This document shows, piece by piece, positions 30,620 to 36,202 of a stretch of DNA of 64,000 nucleotides. Under the pieces are notes generated by a model. The model made no database searches and had not been told where the DNA came from. It saw only the letters and a program-made list of their open reading frames with translations. The stretch spans positions 1 to 64,000 of the forward strand of contig WASS01000019.1 of NCBI GenBank assembly GCA_009712635.1, written 5' to 3'. The translations under genes and the position numbers were made by a program. The stretch's first letter is position 1; each line of letters starts with the position of its first letter. The stretch is from Hungatella sp. (GTDB taxonomy: Bacteria > Bacillota > Clostridia > Lachnospirales > Lachnospiraceae).

Positions 30620-30678
30620 TACAAAAAAAGTCATAAAAGAATACAATCAGTACAAATGTATTGAAGGGAGAAGCTTTT

Positions 30679-33375
30679 ATGAATGATGCACAAAGTAAAA
30701 TATATGATATTTTAAAAGCGCGTGGAATTGATGCAGAAAATGCTGATGGCATTAAGGAAGAGGATATACCGGAAGCGTCAGAACGCTTTAGTAAGCTAAT
30801 GGAAATCTATTATTCCATGAAGGTTACCGCAGATATGGAGATACCTTACTGGTATAACAGGCTGTGGTGGGAGAATGACGGAGATATACTTGAGGTAAGA
30901 AGAGCCAGAGCAGTGGGAGGTGCGTATGCTCACAGCACTCCGACAGTACTGCCTTATGAAAAACTGGTCATGAGCAAAACAAAGAATTTCCGCGGAGCAT
31001 TTCCATTTCCCTGGGTCTGTGCCAGCTTTTTCAATTCTCTTGCAGAATCCCTGATGAATGAAGTAGATGCCCCTGCAGAGAGCGAGGCAGATGCTGTTTC
31101 AGTAGTAGGCGCAGGAGGCGGTAACGTAACTGAAAGCTACGGAGATATTATTTCCATTGCGAAGAAATTTGGAATGAGAAAAGAAGAAATTCCCGTCCTG
31201 GTAAAGGTTTCCAAGTATTGGGAGGGTATATCTGTTGAAGACATCAGTGATAAATATGCACAGATGCTTCCGGATTACGATCAGTTCAAGCGCAACATGG
31301 ATGCAGTGGTTGTCATGTTTGATTCTTTTGCCATTCCTCAGGGCAGGGAGGTAATCAATTATTATATGCCATTGCAGTATGGTTTTGACCGGATCATCCA
31401 GCTTTGCGATGAAAAGATTAATGAGACAATGGGGGAAGCAGGCGAAGACGGCATATTAGGAATGAGCCGCGGTTATTATTATGCAGCAATGAAGGAAATT
31501 ACGGCAGGCTTAAGTAAATGGTGCGATAACTATGGAAAAAGGGCAGAGGACCTTGCAACAAGAGAGCCGGATGAAGAAGTCAGGGCAAATTATTTAGAAA
31601 TCGCCCAGGTGATGCACAATGTTGCCCATAAACGTCCATCCACCTTCCGTGAAGCCCTTCAGATGACGTTATGCTGCCATTTGGGCGTCGTAAACGAAGA
31701 TCCTCAGTCAGGACAATCCATCGGTCGTCTGGGTCAGGTGCTTCAGCCGTTCTATGAGAAAGATATGGAAGATGGTATTACCACAGATGAGGAAGTAATC
31801 GAACTGCTGGAACTCTACCGGATTAAGATAACCTGTATCGAGTGCTTTGCCTCTGCCGGTGTATCAGGCGGTGTGCTTTCCGGAAATACCTTTAATAACC
31901 TTTCCCTTGGAGGACAGAATTATGACGGTTTATCAGCAGTCACTCCTCTTGAATATCTGATTGTGGAAGCGGCTATGAGAGCAAAGACCCCGCAGCCCAC
32001 GCTTTCTGTTCTTTATGATGAAAAGACACCGGAAGATTTCTTAATGAAAGCCGCAGCCTGTACAAAGCTTGGTATGGGTTTCCCGGCATGGATGAACAAT
32101 CAGACTGGAATGAACTTTATGTTAAGGCAGTACGGTGCAGAGGGAATGGACCTTTACGATGCAAGAGCGTGGTGTCTGGGCGGGTGCCTGGAATCGGCTC
32201 CGGGCTGTTTTATGCCTCTGGATTATAACGGAAAAGTCACCATGATTCCCGGAGGCGCCTCTCCAACCTGCGGAACCGGAATTCATTTTACCGGTCTGCC
32301 AAAGATTCTGGAGCTGGTTCTTACAAACGGTCTTGATAAGCGAACCGGAAAACAGGTATTCCCTCCCCATAATGAGAAAATTGATACATATGAGCAGATG
32401 GTGGATTTATGGAAAAAGTATCTGGATATATCAAACCGGATTGTGAACCGGATCAACAATATGCAGATGGATATCTGGAGAAAGTATAATATGCCTGCTG
32501 TGAATTCCCTGCTGAAACCGGACTGCTTTGCAAAGGGACAGCACATTGGCAACTGTGGATCCAGATATAATGCCTGTATCAACTTTGAATCCTGCGGCAC
32601 CATAACATTTATTAACTCCCTGGCTTCTATAAAGAAGAATGTATTTGATGACCGGGCGTTTACACTGGAAGAGATGACAGAGGCTCTGGTTAATAACTTC
32701 GGTTTTAAGACTGCGTATGAGACCAATGTATTTTCCCCGGATTTCAGAGAAAGCACTGAGTCAGCTTCTAAGTATGACCGGATATTTGCAGCATGCATCC
32801 ATGCTCCCAAATACGGAAATGCGGATTCCTATGTAGACAGTCTGCTGAAGGACTATCACATGTTTATGCTTCACTACCTGCCCACACTCCGCTCCTATTA
32901 TGGCAAGCCGGAATATTTATGTCAGATTTCCGTATCCACCCATGGCCCCCAGGGCTTTGTCACTCTGGCGACTCCGGATGGAAGGCTTGCAGGAACCACT
33001 TATTCCGACGGTTCTGTTTCCGCAGCGGCAGGAACCGATAAGAATGGAATTTATGCCATCTTTGAATCAGCCACTGTATATGACCACTCTCAGAATCAGA
33101 ATGCGCAGATGAACTTAAAGCTTCATCCGTCAGCCGTAAAAGGACTTTCCGGAACAAGAAAGCTCCTTGACGTAATCCGTGCCTATATGCGCAAGGGCGG
33201 TTTCCATGTTCAGTTTAATGTTGTTGGCTCGGATACCTTAAAGGAAGCTCAAAAGGAGCCGGACAAATACAGGGACTTAATGGTCCGTGTAGCCGGGTTC
33301 ACCCAGTATTGGTGTGAAATCGGCAAGCCGATTCAGGATGAAGTGATCTATAGAACCGAGTATGATCAGGCTTAA
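30679..33375 (+). CDS. hpdB: p-hydroxyphenylacetate decarboxylase, glycyl radical large subunit
   Basis: This 898-residue glycyl radical enzyme decarboxylates 4-hydroxyphenylacetate (from tyrosine fermentation) to p-cresol. Counting from ATG 30679 (GAAGGGAG upstream), the thiyl Cys503 and Glu505 fall in GGCLES, His536 in GIHFTG, Glu637 in NFESCG, and the radical Gly873 in VRVAGFTQ. These are the positions I recall for the Clostridium scatologenes enzyme, so numbering and length both match. The small Fe-S subunit and activase genes follow directly, which separates it from indoleacetate decarboxylase, which lacks the small subunit. The related phenylacetate decarboxylase remains a less likely alternative. 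The enzyme is oxygen-sensitive and cytoplasmic. Confidence 0.95.
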   Translation: MNDAQSKIYDILKARGIDAENADGIKEEDIPEASERFSKLMEIYYSMKVTADMEIPYWYNRLWWENDGDILEVRRARAVGGAYAHSTPTVLPYEKLVMSKTKNFRGAFPFPWVCASFFNSLAESLMNEVDAPAESEADAVSVVGAGGGNVTESYGDIISIAKKFGMRKEEIPVLVKVSKYWEGISVEDISDKYAQMLPDYDQFKRNMDAVVVMFDSFAIPQGREVINYYMPLQYGFDRIIQLCDEKINETMGEAGEDGILGMSRGYYYAAMKEITAGLSKWCDNYGKRAEDLATREPDEEVRANYLEIAQVMHNVAHKRPSTFREALQMTLCCHLGVVNEDPQSGQSIGRLGQVLQPFYEKDMEDGITTDEEVIELLELYRIKITCIECFASAGVSGGVLSGNTFNNLSLGGQNYDGLSAVTPLEYLIVEAAMRAKTPQPTLSVLYDEKTPEDFLMKAAACTKLGMGFPAWMNNQTGMNFMLRQYGAEGMDLYDARAWCLGGCLESAPGCFMPLDYNGKVTMIPGGASPTCGTGIHFTGLPKILELVLTNGLDKRTGKQVFPPHNEKIDTYEQMVDLWKKYLDISNRIVNRINNMQMDIWRKYNMPAVNSLLKPDCFAKGQHIGNCGSRYNACINFESCGTITFINSLASIKKNVFDDRAFTLEEMTEALVNNFGFKTAYETNVFSPDFRESTESASKYDRIFAACIHAPKYGNADSYVDSLLKDYHMFMLHYLPTLRSYYGKPEYLCQISVSTHGPQGFVTLATPDGRLAGTTYSDGSVSAAAGTDKNGIYAIFESATVYDHSQNQNAQMNLKLHPSAVKGLSGTRKLLDVIRAYMRKGGFHVQFNVVGSDTLKEAQKEPDKYRDLMVRVAGFTQYWCEIGKPIQDEVIYRTEYDQA

Positions 33376-33400: not shown

Positions 33401-33676
33401 ATGAAGCATGTTAAATGCGTGAACTTTTTAAACTTAGATTGTGAAAAGGGAATGTGTGCCCTGAGCAAGGCAATCGTTCCGATTGATGGAGAAGGAAGTG
33501 ACGCATGTCAAAGTTACCAGCCGGCTCCGGAATGCGGAAATTGCCGCCATTTCTATGATGGAGACAAATACGGAATGGGAATGTGCAAAGGATATGAAAA
33601 GGAAAACTGGGCATATGCCACCTGCGGCGCATTCTCCTGTGAAAAATATGAAAGCAGAAGATATCAGGAAGCCTGA
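33401..33676 (+). CDS. hpdC: p-hydroxyphenylacetate decarboxylase small Fe-S subunit
   Basis: 91 residues, the small subunit that forms the hetero-octamer with HpdB and carries two 4Fe-4S clusters thought to tune radical activity. The ligand pattern is complete: His3, Cys6, Cys19, Cys36 for the first cluster and Cys45, Cys48, Cys62, Cys80 for the second. The His/Cys3 plus Cys4 arrangement is specific to this family. AAGGAGGAAG precedes ATG 33401. It ends one base before the hpdA start. Confidence 0.95.
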   Translation: MKHVKCVNFLNLDCEKGMCALSKAIVPIDGEGSDACQSYQPAPECGNCRHFYDGDKYGMGMCKGYEKENWAYATCGAFSCEKYESRRYQEA

Positions 33677-33677
33677 T

Positions 33678-34616
33678 ATGGAAAAAAAGGGGCTGATATT
33701 TGATATTCAGGCTTTTTCCGTACATGACGGTCCGGGCTGCCGCACCAATGTTTTTCTGGCCGGCTGCCCGCTTCAGTGTAAATGGTGCGCCAATCCCGAA
33801 AGCTGGATCTGTAAAAAGCACCTGATGTTTGCTGAAAAAATGTGTAAATATGATCATGGATGCAGGGCATGCAAGGATGCGTGCCCCTACGGCTCCATTG
33901 TCATAACGGAAAGCGAAAAGCCACGTATAAACTGGGAGATATGCAAGAACTGCCGGACCTTTGAATGCACCGGAGTATGCCCGAACAATGTTTTAAAGCA
34001 ATGTGTGAAAGAGTATGAGCCGGAAGAACTGGTAAGCATTCTGCGGCGTGATTTTAATAACTGGGGGGCTGAGGGGGGTGTGACCTTTTCCGGAGGCGAT
34101 CCCATGCTCCAGCATGAGTTTCTCATTGAGGTGCTGAAAGACTGCAGGAAATGGAATATTCATACAGCCATTGAAACCAGTGCATACTTTCCGGAAGAAA
34201 TATTTCTCCAGGTAATGGAGTACATTCATTTCGCTTTTATTGATGTGAAAAATATGGACTCCATCGCTCATGAGATGGGAACGGGGGTTGGAAATGAACG
34301 GATTCTTTCCAACATTTCCGCATTGAAAGCCTCTGGATGGAAGGGCAGACTCGTATTGCGTCAACCCACCATTTCGGGTTATAATGACAGTGATGAAAAT
34401 GCCAGACAGCTGATTGCGTTCATGCAGGAGAATGACTTATTCGAAGTGAATCTTTTAAAATTTCACCGGTTAGGTACAACGAAGTGGGAGCAGCTGGGTA
34501 AAACTTATGAATACTCCGATCATGGAGATATGAGTGACCAGCGGATGAAAGAATTACAAAATATTTATTTAAAAGCAAATATAGCGTGCTACATTGGTGA
34601 TGACACCTTGTTTTAA
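33678..34616 (+). CDS. hpdA: glycyl radical enzyme activase for HpdB (radical SAM)
   Basis: 312 residues. The radical-SAM cluster motif is C-x3-C-x2-C at Cys30, Cys34, Cys37 (LAGCPLQCKWC). It is followed by an inserted ferredoxin-like segment with two Cys clusters (GCRACKDACPYGS and CKNCRTFECTGVCPNN), as in HPAD and glycerol dehydratase activases. FSGGDPMLQ is the SAM-binding GGE-type motif. It abstracts a hydrogen from HpdB Gly873 to make the radical. The start ATG 33678 follows hpdC by one base; the open frame upstream overlaps hpdC and is not used. Confidence 0.94.
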   Translation: MEKKGLIFDIQAFSVHDGPGCRTNVFLAGCPLQCKWCANPESWICKKHLMFAEKMCKYDHGCRACKDACPYGSIVITESEKPRINWEICKNCRTFECTGVCPNNVLKQCVKEYEPEELVSILRRDFNNWGAEGGVTFSGGDPMLQHEFLIEVLKDCRKWNIHTAIETSAYFPEEIFLQVMEYIHFAFIDVKNMDSIAHEMGTGVGNERILSNISALKASGWKGRLVLRQPTISGYNDSDENARQLIAFMQENDLFEVNLLKFHRLGTTKWEQLGKTYEYSDHGDMSDQRMKELQNIYLKANIACYIGDDTLF

Positions 34617-34641: not shown

Positions 34642-35301
34642 ATGGATTTAAAGGACAGTTACATTTATGAATTTATTAAAGAGAGGAATATCGGTGATAT
34701 CTCTTTAAAAAGCTGCAAAAAAGGAAGCGTCATTACAGACGGGGCCGATGACAGAATCCATGTAATTTTCCTGCTGGAGGGCGCTATTAAGGTTGTGACT
34801 ACCAGTATTGAAGGCAAGCAGATTCTCATAGATGAGGTATGTGAAAACAGTTTCAGCGGACACATCAGCAAGGTAAGGGGACAGAACTTTTTTGCCACTG
34901 TCATAGCCAAAACAAATTGCATTTATCTGGATTTTCCTGACAAGGTATTTGATGAATTGATGAAAAACCAGGATTTTGCCTGCTTCTTCTACAAAAGCAC
35001 CAGTGACCGGGTTTATCTCATGTACCGTAAGCTGTTAGCAAAAGAACTGTTTTCACAGGAAGAAATGATCGCTTATTACCTGCTTTCCAAAGCAGATAAA
35101 GAAGATCTGGTTGCGCTCAGTAAATATTATATCTGCGAAGCCATGGGAATCAGCAGAAGAAATTTTTATAATATAATAAACAGATTTTATAAAAATGGCT
35201 GGGTTAAAAAAGAGGGTATGTGTGTCAGAATCATAAGAGGTGACGAGCTGGAGAGAGTTTCTAATCGTATGCGATGGTTTTTTGCGGAAAGCAGCATATA
35301 A
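34642..35301 (+). CDS. Crp/Fnr-family transcriptional regulator
   Basis: 219 residues with a cyclic-nucleotide-binding-type beta barrel (about 20-120; IHVIFLLEGAIKVVTTSIEGKQI) and a C-terminal winged helix (LSKYYICEAMGISRRNFYNIINRFYKNGWV). There is no N-terminal Cys cluster of the Fnr type, so it is unlikely to sense oxygen by Fe-S. The layout resembles YeiL/Crp-like clostridial regulators. AGGAGAAG precedes the ATG, and the gene lies 25 bases after hpdA, so it is probably part of the hpd operon and may control it from the palindromes at 30576-30619. Confidence 0.85.
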   Translation: MDLKDSYIYEFIKERNIGDISLKSCKKGSVITDGADDRIHVIFLLEGAIKVVTTSIEGKQILIDEVCENSFSGHISKVRGQNFFATVIAKTNCIYLDFPDKVFDELMKNQDFACFFYKSTSDRVYLMYRKLLAKELFSQEEMIAYYLLSKADKEDLVALSKYYICEAMGISRRNFYNIINRFYKNGWVKKEGMCVRIIRGDELERVSNRMRWFFAESSI

Positions 35302-35328: not shown

Positions 35329-36126
35329 GTGAGATCGAAGAAGATGGCATATATAATTGAAAAAATAACAGAGAATCACTGGAAGATCAATTTTACAACA
35401 CCTGCCGCCCACTGGATGAAGCTGTTGGAGAGTGATGCAGGAAAAACAAAGCATAAGCTGGAGAGATTCGCCCAGGAAGAATTTGAAAAATTTGCGGAGG
35501 ATTGTGAATGTATCATACTTTCAGAGTCCGCTTTTCATATGGAGCAGATGAAGCTTGACAAGCCGCTGGTTTTTTCTATAAAGGCTGAGCTGTCACCCAA
35601 GGTCATCCCTGGTCAATATAAGAACCTTAAAGTGTTTGTCAAAGAGGATTCTTATACTGAGGCAGATAAAAGAGAGTCGGCGTTAATGGAACTTCTGATT
35701 CAGGGTTCCGGATTTGGAGATGTCACAGCAATGATTGAGAAGATGATACAGCAGATGACAGAAGAATATGCCAGCCGCTTAAGTCAGGAGGGATTGTCCC
35801 TTGAACAGTTTTACAAGATGACAGGCAGCTCCCTGACAGACTTAATGAAGCAGTTTCAGCCTGCGGCAGAGCGCAGGGTAAAGGGCCGGCTGGTTTTGTA
35901 TGCCGTTGCAAAGGCTGAGGGAATTAAGGTCAGTCCCGAAGAACTGGATAATGAACTGAAACGCTTATCAGCGCTTTATCTGATGCCGGCTGACCAGATC
36001 AGAAAGCTTTTGGCCGGAAGTGAGGGCAGAAAGCTGAAGCAGGATATTCTGATCAATAAAACCATGAGATACTTAATGGATCAGAATGAATTTGCGGTAA
36101 GCGCAGAGGCTGGCGTTGTAAAATAA
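35329..36126 (+). CDS. trigger-factor-like protein lacking the ribosome-docking motif and PPIase domain
   Basis: 265 residues. Residues about 1-95 resemble the trigger-factor N-terminal fold, including the PLVFSIKAELSPKVIPGQYKNLKV strand region, but the ribosome-binding GFRxGxxP loop is absent. No FKBP domain follows. The rest is a helical trigger-factor C-domain (RRVKGRLVLYAVAKAEGIKVSPEELDNEL). It would act as a chaperone not tied to the ribosome. It sits 27 bases after the Crp/Fnr gene at the end of the hpd operon, which suggests help in folding or protecting HpdB, but this is inference. The start is uncertain: GTG 35329 sits 3 bases after AGGAG, and ATG 35344 is the alternative. Confidence 0.72.
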   Translation: MRSKKMAYIIEKITENHWKINFTTPAAHWMKLLESDAGKTKHKLERFAQEEFEKFAEDCECIILSESAFHMEQMKLDKPLVFSIKAELSPKVIPGQYKNLKVFVKEDSYTEADKRESALMELLIQGSGFGDVTAMIEKMIQQMTEEYASRLSQEGLSLEQFYKMTGSSLTDLMKQFQPAAERRVKGRLVLYAVAKAEGIKVSPEELDNELKRLSALYLMPADQIRKLLAGSEGRKLKQDILINKTMRYLMDQNEFAVSAEAGVVK

Positions 36127-36132
36127 CAATAA

Positions 36133-36180
36133 AACTGCCGTTAGAACCGGATGTATTCCGGTTTATACGGCAGTTCTTTT
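36133..36180 (+). terminator. intrinsic terminator of the hpd operon
   Basis: AACTGCCGTTAGAACCGG ... CCGGTTTATACGGCAGTT followed by CTTTTTG. Confidence 0.87.
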
Positions 36181-36202
36181 TGTATAAGGATATTTTAATT
36201 AC

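Follow-up and report, generated by a model that had tools for sequence, protein, structure and literature searches.

The last gene of an hpd operon in the window, the 64,000-nucleotide stretch of DNA analyzed here, encodes a derivative of trigger factor (TF) with a trimmed N-domain and no prolyl-isomerase (PPIase) domain, an assignment we regard as confirmed. HpdBCA, 4-hydroxyphenylacetate decarboxylase (HPAD), is the glycyl radical enzyme (GRE) system that makes p-cresol. From sequence comparisons we propose tentatively, giving the proposal slightly less than an even chance, that a TF duplicate free of the ribosome and devoid of PPIase was captured by one lineage of hpd operons in Lachnospiraceae, where it would act as an off-ribosome chaperone for an Hpd protein. 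Radical enzymes that are both large and oxygen-sensitive pose problems of assembly and activation, and little is settled about the helpers they require in vivo. If the proposal is true, the gene would be a natural test of a TF C-domain acting alone and would show a route from a general to an enzyme-specific chaperone; it might also aid the production of HPAD-type enzymes for study.

A trimmed trigger factor after hpdBCA and a Crp-type gene

The operon runs on the forward strand in the order hpdB-hpdC-hpdA, a Crp-type gene and the TF-like gene, and all three Hpd proteins score above curated cut-offs, which bears out the placement after hpdBCA and a regulator given in the first-pass annotation. 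The large glycyl radical subunit, HpdB (30661..33375, with 30661 or 30679 as its start), matches NF033715 with 1650 bits (cut-off 1150). The small Fe-S subunit, HpdC (33404..33676, start placed from the model match), reaches 108.7 bits against NF033716 (cut-off 50) and has Pfam matches to HPIP_like and 4HPAD_g_N, and the radical-SAM activase, HpdA (33678..34616, predicted start), reaches 526.1 bits against NF033717 (cut-off 420). The Crp-type regulator (34642..35301, predicted start) matches Pfam cNMP_binding (44.4 bits, cut-off 27.5), HTH_Crp_2 weakly (22 bits, under the cut-off of 27) and, as a weakly YeiL-like protein, NF007707 (51.4 bits, under the cut-off of 180).

The TF-like gene (35344..36126, forward strand) begins 42 bp beyond the regulator, or 27 bp if the start at 35329 is used. 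Its open reading frame (35329-36126) encodes 265 aa from a GTG at 35329; the ATG at 35344, which gives 260 aa and aligns with Met1 of true TFs, has an equal claim to be the start. Directly 3' of the gene lies a terminator-like hairpin with a T run (36132..36182, forward strand), and beyond it a convergent GntR gene. The fold of 36120-36190 has an energy of -29.9 kcal/mol (z -6.83), and none of 200 shuffles was as stable. The hairpin is absent from the list of a simple promoter and terminator pattern scan. Since that scan found 11 promoter-like sites against 12.7 in shuffles, and 7 terminator-like sites against 5.3 (sd 2.6), it reveals nothing above chance. From the layout, with one strand, a small gap and the TF-like gene last before the hairpin, we infer co-transcription.

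Pfam Trigger_C (PF05698) matches residues 115-250 of the TF-like protein at profile positions 25-161 (E 9.1e-25, 88 bits, cut-off 22.7), and Trigger_N matches with 27.7 bits against a cut-off of 22.2 (E 3.7e-6), confined to profile positions 66-136. At E<=1, Pfam finds neither an FKBP family nor an AAA family or ATPase match in the protein, and the NCBI tig model (TIGR00115) gives 99.4 bits, under its cut-off of 180.2. Alignment to six true TFs shows that the beginning and a later part of the N-domain are retained and that the roughly 29 residues that hold GFRxGxxP are deleted; this motif is present in all six true TFs and in neither of two TF-likes. The linker, GQYKNLKV, is also retained, after which the PPIase domain is skipped and the C-domain follows. 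Thus, the features of the first-pass annotation, a TF N- and C-domain with GFRxGxxP and the PPIase missing, all stand, and the TF match is solid in domain searches. As the ribosome loop is deleted, the protein should not dock on ribosomes through it, as that annotation had also expected. The gene is intact and in the same place in two other hpdB-positive congeners, with an omega of 0.22-0.30, and is therefore not a chance reading frame.

Structure prediction, for which the input was only three near-identical rows, gave a low-confidence model (mean pLDDT 55.6, pTM 0.38) with a strand-strand-helix-helix-strand-strand arrangement and a mostly helical remainder. With this model, Foldseek returned no match at E<=0.001 and listed glutamate dehydrogenase chains first and TFs from rank 5. 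In a structural second look, TFs took ranks 1-4, and the N-domain of the low-confidence model superposed on that of E. coli TF with Z 7.1 (rmsd 2.5, 85 residues); as unrelated proteins start at Z 6.5, with no clear gap below the TFs, the comparison appears to fit a TF but is not decisive. A PDB sequence search gave two weak matches, one of them a TF. On plasmids, the TF-like protein matched six records by the C-domain at 24-37% identity, of which three carry the annotation tig and three carry none; no HpdB was found there at E<=1e-100, and viral contigs held no TF-like relative.

Linkage of the TF-like gene to hpd loci

HpdB above the cut-off is rare: it occurs in 4 of 397 genomes of the family sample, 3 of 25 of the genus and 5 of 391 of the class sample. 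These samples overlap and together hold ten hpdB loci in nine genomes. A TF-like gene stands beside four of the ten. In the window genome (G000), Lacrimispora xylanisolvens DSM 3808 (G417, L012) and G410 (L013), it is intact and in the same operon place, and the operon of DSM 3808 is nearly identical to that of the window; Lacrimispora belongs to Lachnospiraceae (NCBI taxonomy). The fourth is one of two hpdB loci in G214 (G214:C83). The other six (G214:C78, G203, G261, G486, G537 and G712) have no TF-like gene in the 19.9 kb around each, and the latter five genomes have no Trigger_C match with an open frame under 360 aa anywhere. Within the window's genus, the TF-like gene was present in all three hpdB-positive and in none of seven hpdB-negative genomes tested (ten of 25 genomes). 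PPIase-less TF genes adjoin hpd genes in three genera, those of the window, G214 and G191, the genus searches around G191 and G214 comprising one genome each. The neighborhood conservation near hpdB that the first-pass annotation proposed as a check is partial: linkage recurs in three genera, but six of ten loci do without the gene.

At G214:C83 (L023), the TF-like protein has 169 aa, consists of the linker and C-domain only, and is encoded upstream of hpdB, the order being TF-like gene, ClpC/ClpB-type gene, hpdBCA. The ClpC/ClpB-type AAA+ gene (L023:1003-3434) lies in two overlapping frames between the TF-like gene and hpdB. It is possibly a second helper of the hpd system, and its frame split is possibly a sequencing error or the mark of a pseudogene. 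Downstream of hpdBCA follow DUF6198, hemerythrin, TPR, DUF4037, DUF4125 and two Crp-type genes, the second called by similarity only. As G214 is listed with 6% contamination, the C83 contig might stem from another organism.

The third genus is represented by G191, a single contig of 3.19 Mb that is 99% complete. On one strand (L114:9601-11085), it carries an hpdA that is both truncated and internally deleted, a scrap of DUF6198, a Crp fragment and a TF-like fragment; the order of hpdA, crp and TF is that of the window, and the locus is a decaying hpd operon. No pieces of hpdB were found in the 5.5 kb searched at this remnant, and the family search found no HpdB in the genome at E<=1e-200.

Separate genes for TPR, DUF4037 and DUF4125 are found no more than about 5 kb from three GRE or activase genes at different loci (L023:9016-11556, L109:7383-9810 and L112:1696-4209; two loci in G214 and one in G253). 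Single long proteins that hold all three together are common away from GRE genes. DUF4125 occurs in 94 of 397 genomes, with an open frame over 700 aa in 50 of 97 matches, and at 13 of 20 loci around DUF4125 the three parts form one long protein. Proteins with DUF4125 and DUF4037 are also found in an anaerobic limonene degradation operon (PMC12583861, in excerpt). Of the 20 DUF4125 loci, two include GRE genes and another has a short HpdA-like scrap. Together the 20 contain one true Tig, one 349-aa TF paralogue and no PPIase-less TF-like gene, so DUF4125 is no marker of the TF-like gene, and we rejected the DUF4125/DUF4037/TPR set as a marker of a chaperone module.

The window genome has three Trigger_C genes: a Tig at C7, a PPIase-containing protein at C30 and the TF-like gene. 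The C7 copy is a true Tig with the motif GFRKGKAP, which the window copy lacks, and its neighbors are presumably clpP-like and clpX-like genes; the PPIase and Trigger_C protein at C30 begins with what we take to be a lipoprotein-like motif. A PPIase and Trigger_C protein with a lipoprotein-like start lies at L031:9235-10377. Trigger_C matches with frames of 363-409 aa occur in 13 of 13 same-family genomes compared, the domains having been checked only at L031. No Trigger_C gene adjoins any of the three other GRE loci of the window genome.

TF relatives, trees and selection

All 397 family genomes have Trigger_C, and 117 of them have at least three matches (a count read from the table); single Trigger_C matches cited from this search are among the matches listed. 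A TF-like profile search covered 80 of these 117 genomes, and we opened 17 places (12 plus five) with shorter open frames and E 1e-6 or better. Six PPIase-less TF relatives were opened, three at hpd genes or their remnant and three, in G338, G193 and G069, with no HpdB or HpdA hits nearby. The G338 relative is a divergent 156-aa C-domain protein. The G193 relative (L131:6923-7801) has 292 aa, no PPIase and, by eye, an export-type start, and that of G069 (L129:7014-7991) has 325 aa and an export-type start, and is PPIase-less as read by eye, not by Pfam. When these two export-type proteins are left aside, the hpd-linked share is three of four. By its own terms, the first-pass annotation would fail if homologues sat mostly away from GREs, and with three of six PPIase-less relatives at hpd and three elsewhere this is only partly answered.

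Among the matches opened were five of 303-341 aa, with a PPIase in L127, L128 and L130 and none in L131 and L129. Nine proteins lack the N-domain and combine PPIase, seen as an FKBP match, with the C-domain (L116-L122, L128 and L130), and L127 is a lipoprotein-like protein with PPIase and C-domain; no HpdB or HpdA was found near these nine or L127 in the stretches read. N-less TFs of about 320 aa with PPIase and C-domain (L117, L118 and L119) lie near a gene that we take to be DNA polymerase I-like, and similar proteins recur in the family. Matches in G129, G128 and G048 were rejected as short TF-likes, being contig-edge pieces of the true tig locus. The short TF C-domain protein of G338 is the second found within a metabolic cluster. 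That cluster (L115:345-10196) also holds a variant GroEL-like chaperonin, an MtaA/URO-D-like methyltransferase, an AcsV-like corrinoid activation protein, two short-chain dehydrogenases and a ketopantoate hydroxymethyltransferase-like gene.

In a 31-row C-domain tree, one branch (91/97, not starred) sets the five hpd-linked TF-likes apart from the other rows, in a run that carries the program's warning that long branches meet. Three rows, those of G338, an N-less protein and a lipoprotein-like protein, are left out of this tree because they are very long; in a first tree that kept the three, the TF-likes do not form one branch, and the G191 fragment groups with G338. Neither tree includes the proteins of G193 and G069. 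As the branch depends on omitting three rows, a single origin is likely, short of shown. HpdB itself groups into one clade (100/98) across the four TF-linked loci, and the nearest HpdB outside it, that of G537, is 78% identical and comes from a locus with no TF-like gene. Together, the TF-like branch and the HpdB clade fit one capture in one lineage of hpd operons and then retention through rearrangement, and the trees support this capture and co-inheritance as likely.

Among the three congeners, pairwise omega is 0.22-0.30 for the TF-like gene, 0.02-0.03 for hpdB, 0.085-0.106 for hpdA and 0-0.03 for the regulator, all as simple pairwise counts with few changes. The TF-like gene is under purifying selection, yet it is the least constrained of the four genes compared.

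Candidate roles and known systems

In the reading we prefer, a TF duplicate would have lost its ribosome-binding loop and prolyl-isomerase domain and then been captured, probably once, by one lineage of hpd operons in Lachnospiraceae. Its product would be made together with HpdB, HpdC and HpdA. With an N-core, a C-domain and no loop, it should hold clients off the ribosome, presumably as a passive holding and assembly chaperone working through the TF C-domain. As it would be made with HpdBCA, the Hpd proteins are its likeliest putative clients, either the large HpdB or the Fe-S proteins HpdC and HpdA. The linkage in three genera suggests, short of proof, that the TF-like protein has become the enzyme's own helper; it strengthens the dedicated-chaperone reading, which is plausible but confined to one HpdB clade.

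The first-pass annotation had suggested that the protein may be a dedicated chaperone for a large radical enzyme, which is partly supported. The recurring hpd linkage speaks for this, but the claim as stated is unsupported, given the six of ten hpdB loci that lack the gene, the three other GRE loci of the window genome that have none, and the finding that hpdBCA of C. difficile alone makes p-cresol in Bacteroides thetaiotaomicron (PMC10746243, in excerpt), so that HPAD as such needs no TF-like protein. In its own lineage, the protein may benefit yield, stability, or the capacity to withstand oxygen or heat. The hpdB loci without the gene and the Bacteroides result also weigh against our own reading, as do the three PPIase-less TF relatives away from hpd, the faster evolution of the gene than of its neighbors, the loss of the TF-like branch when three long rows are kept, the contamination of G214 and the decay of the G191 copy. 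A more specific version, in which a single capture by an hpd operon would have given rise to an enzyme-specific assembly or rescue chaperone of the GRE, joined in one lineage by a ClpC-like unfoldase, strikes us as doubtful.

Like the duplicates of Myxococcus, the gene could also encode a common type of TF paralogue, free of the ribosome and acting widely in stress or as a holdase; the hpd operon would then offer it only expression and hitch-hiking. Such a role would sit well with the PPIase-less TFs away from hpd in G338, G193 and G069, with the 117 of 397 genomes that have at least three Trigger_C matches, and with the literature, in which TF duplicates lacking the ribosome motif form an established class of diverse function and 209 of the 238 Firmicutes genomes that carry several TFs are Clostridia (PMC11559001, in excerpt). 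We nevertheless consider it unlikely: the hpd linkage recurs in three genera, with the gene order changed in one case, the gene is absent from the seven hpdB-negative congeners tested, and the N-less and lipoprotein-like paralogues show no HpdB or HpdA nearby in the stretches read.

Alternatively, the TF-like protein might be a quality-control adaptor that passes unactivated or oxygen-cleaved HpdB to a Clp unfoldase for clearing or recycling, rather than for folding. In the window, no ClpC-like gene was seen next to the operon, and the copy in G214 is split between two frames, so we rate this as distinctly improbable, even though the TF C-domain gene of G214 directly precedes the ClpC/ClpB-type gene, with hpdB following and hemerythrin encoded downstream, and rescue of an oxygen-damaged activated GRE by a spare part protein is known (PMC8683613, in excerpt). 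It is very improbable that the gene is no more than what drift has left of a TF duplicate, its function slight, since its faster evolution than its operon neighbors, the decayed copy in G191 and the reduction to a C-domain in G214 are set against an omega of 0.22-0.30, an intact frame in all three hpdB-positive congeners and a G191 copy whose decay also took in hpdA and crp.

The proposed chaperone for an Hpd protein differs from each known system that it resembles. Like Tig (TIGR00115), the TF-like protein has the C-domain, the linker and part of the N-domain, but it has no GFRxGxxP loop and no FKBP/PPIase domain and scores below the tig cut-off, and is therefore no member of Tig. As an extra motif-less copy beside one complete Tig, it is like the ribosome-free TF duplicates already described (PMC11559001, in excerpt). 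The N-terminally defective TF homologues of Myxococcus xanthus keep PPIase and the C-domain, whereas the TF-like protein has no PPIase, keeps a trimmed N-core and is tied to one catabolic operon (PMC11559001, in excerpt). Plant Tig2 is likewise a truncated TF with a new job, but is the reverse case, as it keeps only the ribosome-binding domain (PMC11731035).

The first-pass annotation had not seen the role itself described, which holds for its TF origin and not for its setting. Helpers borne by GRE operons are known, namely TutH, IbsE and BssE, of which TutH and IbsE are of the same AAA+ type as BssE. As precedents for the proposed role, TutH and IbsE are called chaperones in work on X-succinate synthases (PMC10239695, in excerpt), and BssE is an AAA+ protein and putative chaperone (PMC7285207, in excerpt). 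The TF-like gene is like these three in being a helper-type gene in a GRE system, and unlike BssE in being a TF derivative with no ATPase match. In the open-licence literature, we found no described case of a TF-derived chaperone dedicated to one metabolic enzyme and no link between TF and HPAD or GREs, the latter being weak evidence of absence. To our knowledge, the gbu pathway is not a GRE pathway. In a foreign host at 37 C, it needed a GroEL-like chaperone (PMC10653785, in excerpt), which is like the TF-like gene in being pathway-linked and near its cluster only in some species, and differs from it in being of GroEL type. The activase of indoleacetate decarboxylase has been co-expressed with GroES-GroEL (PMC6181972, in excerpt). 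Collectively, ribosome-free TF duplicates and GRE-operon helpers are known, and a GRE operon that appears to bear a TF-derived, PPIase-less helper would be new.
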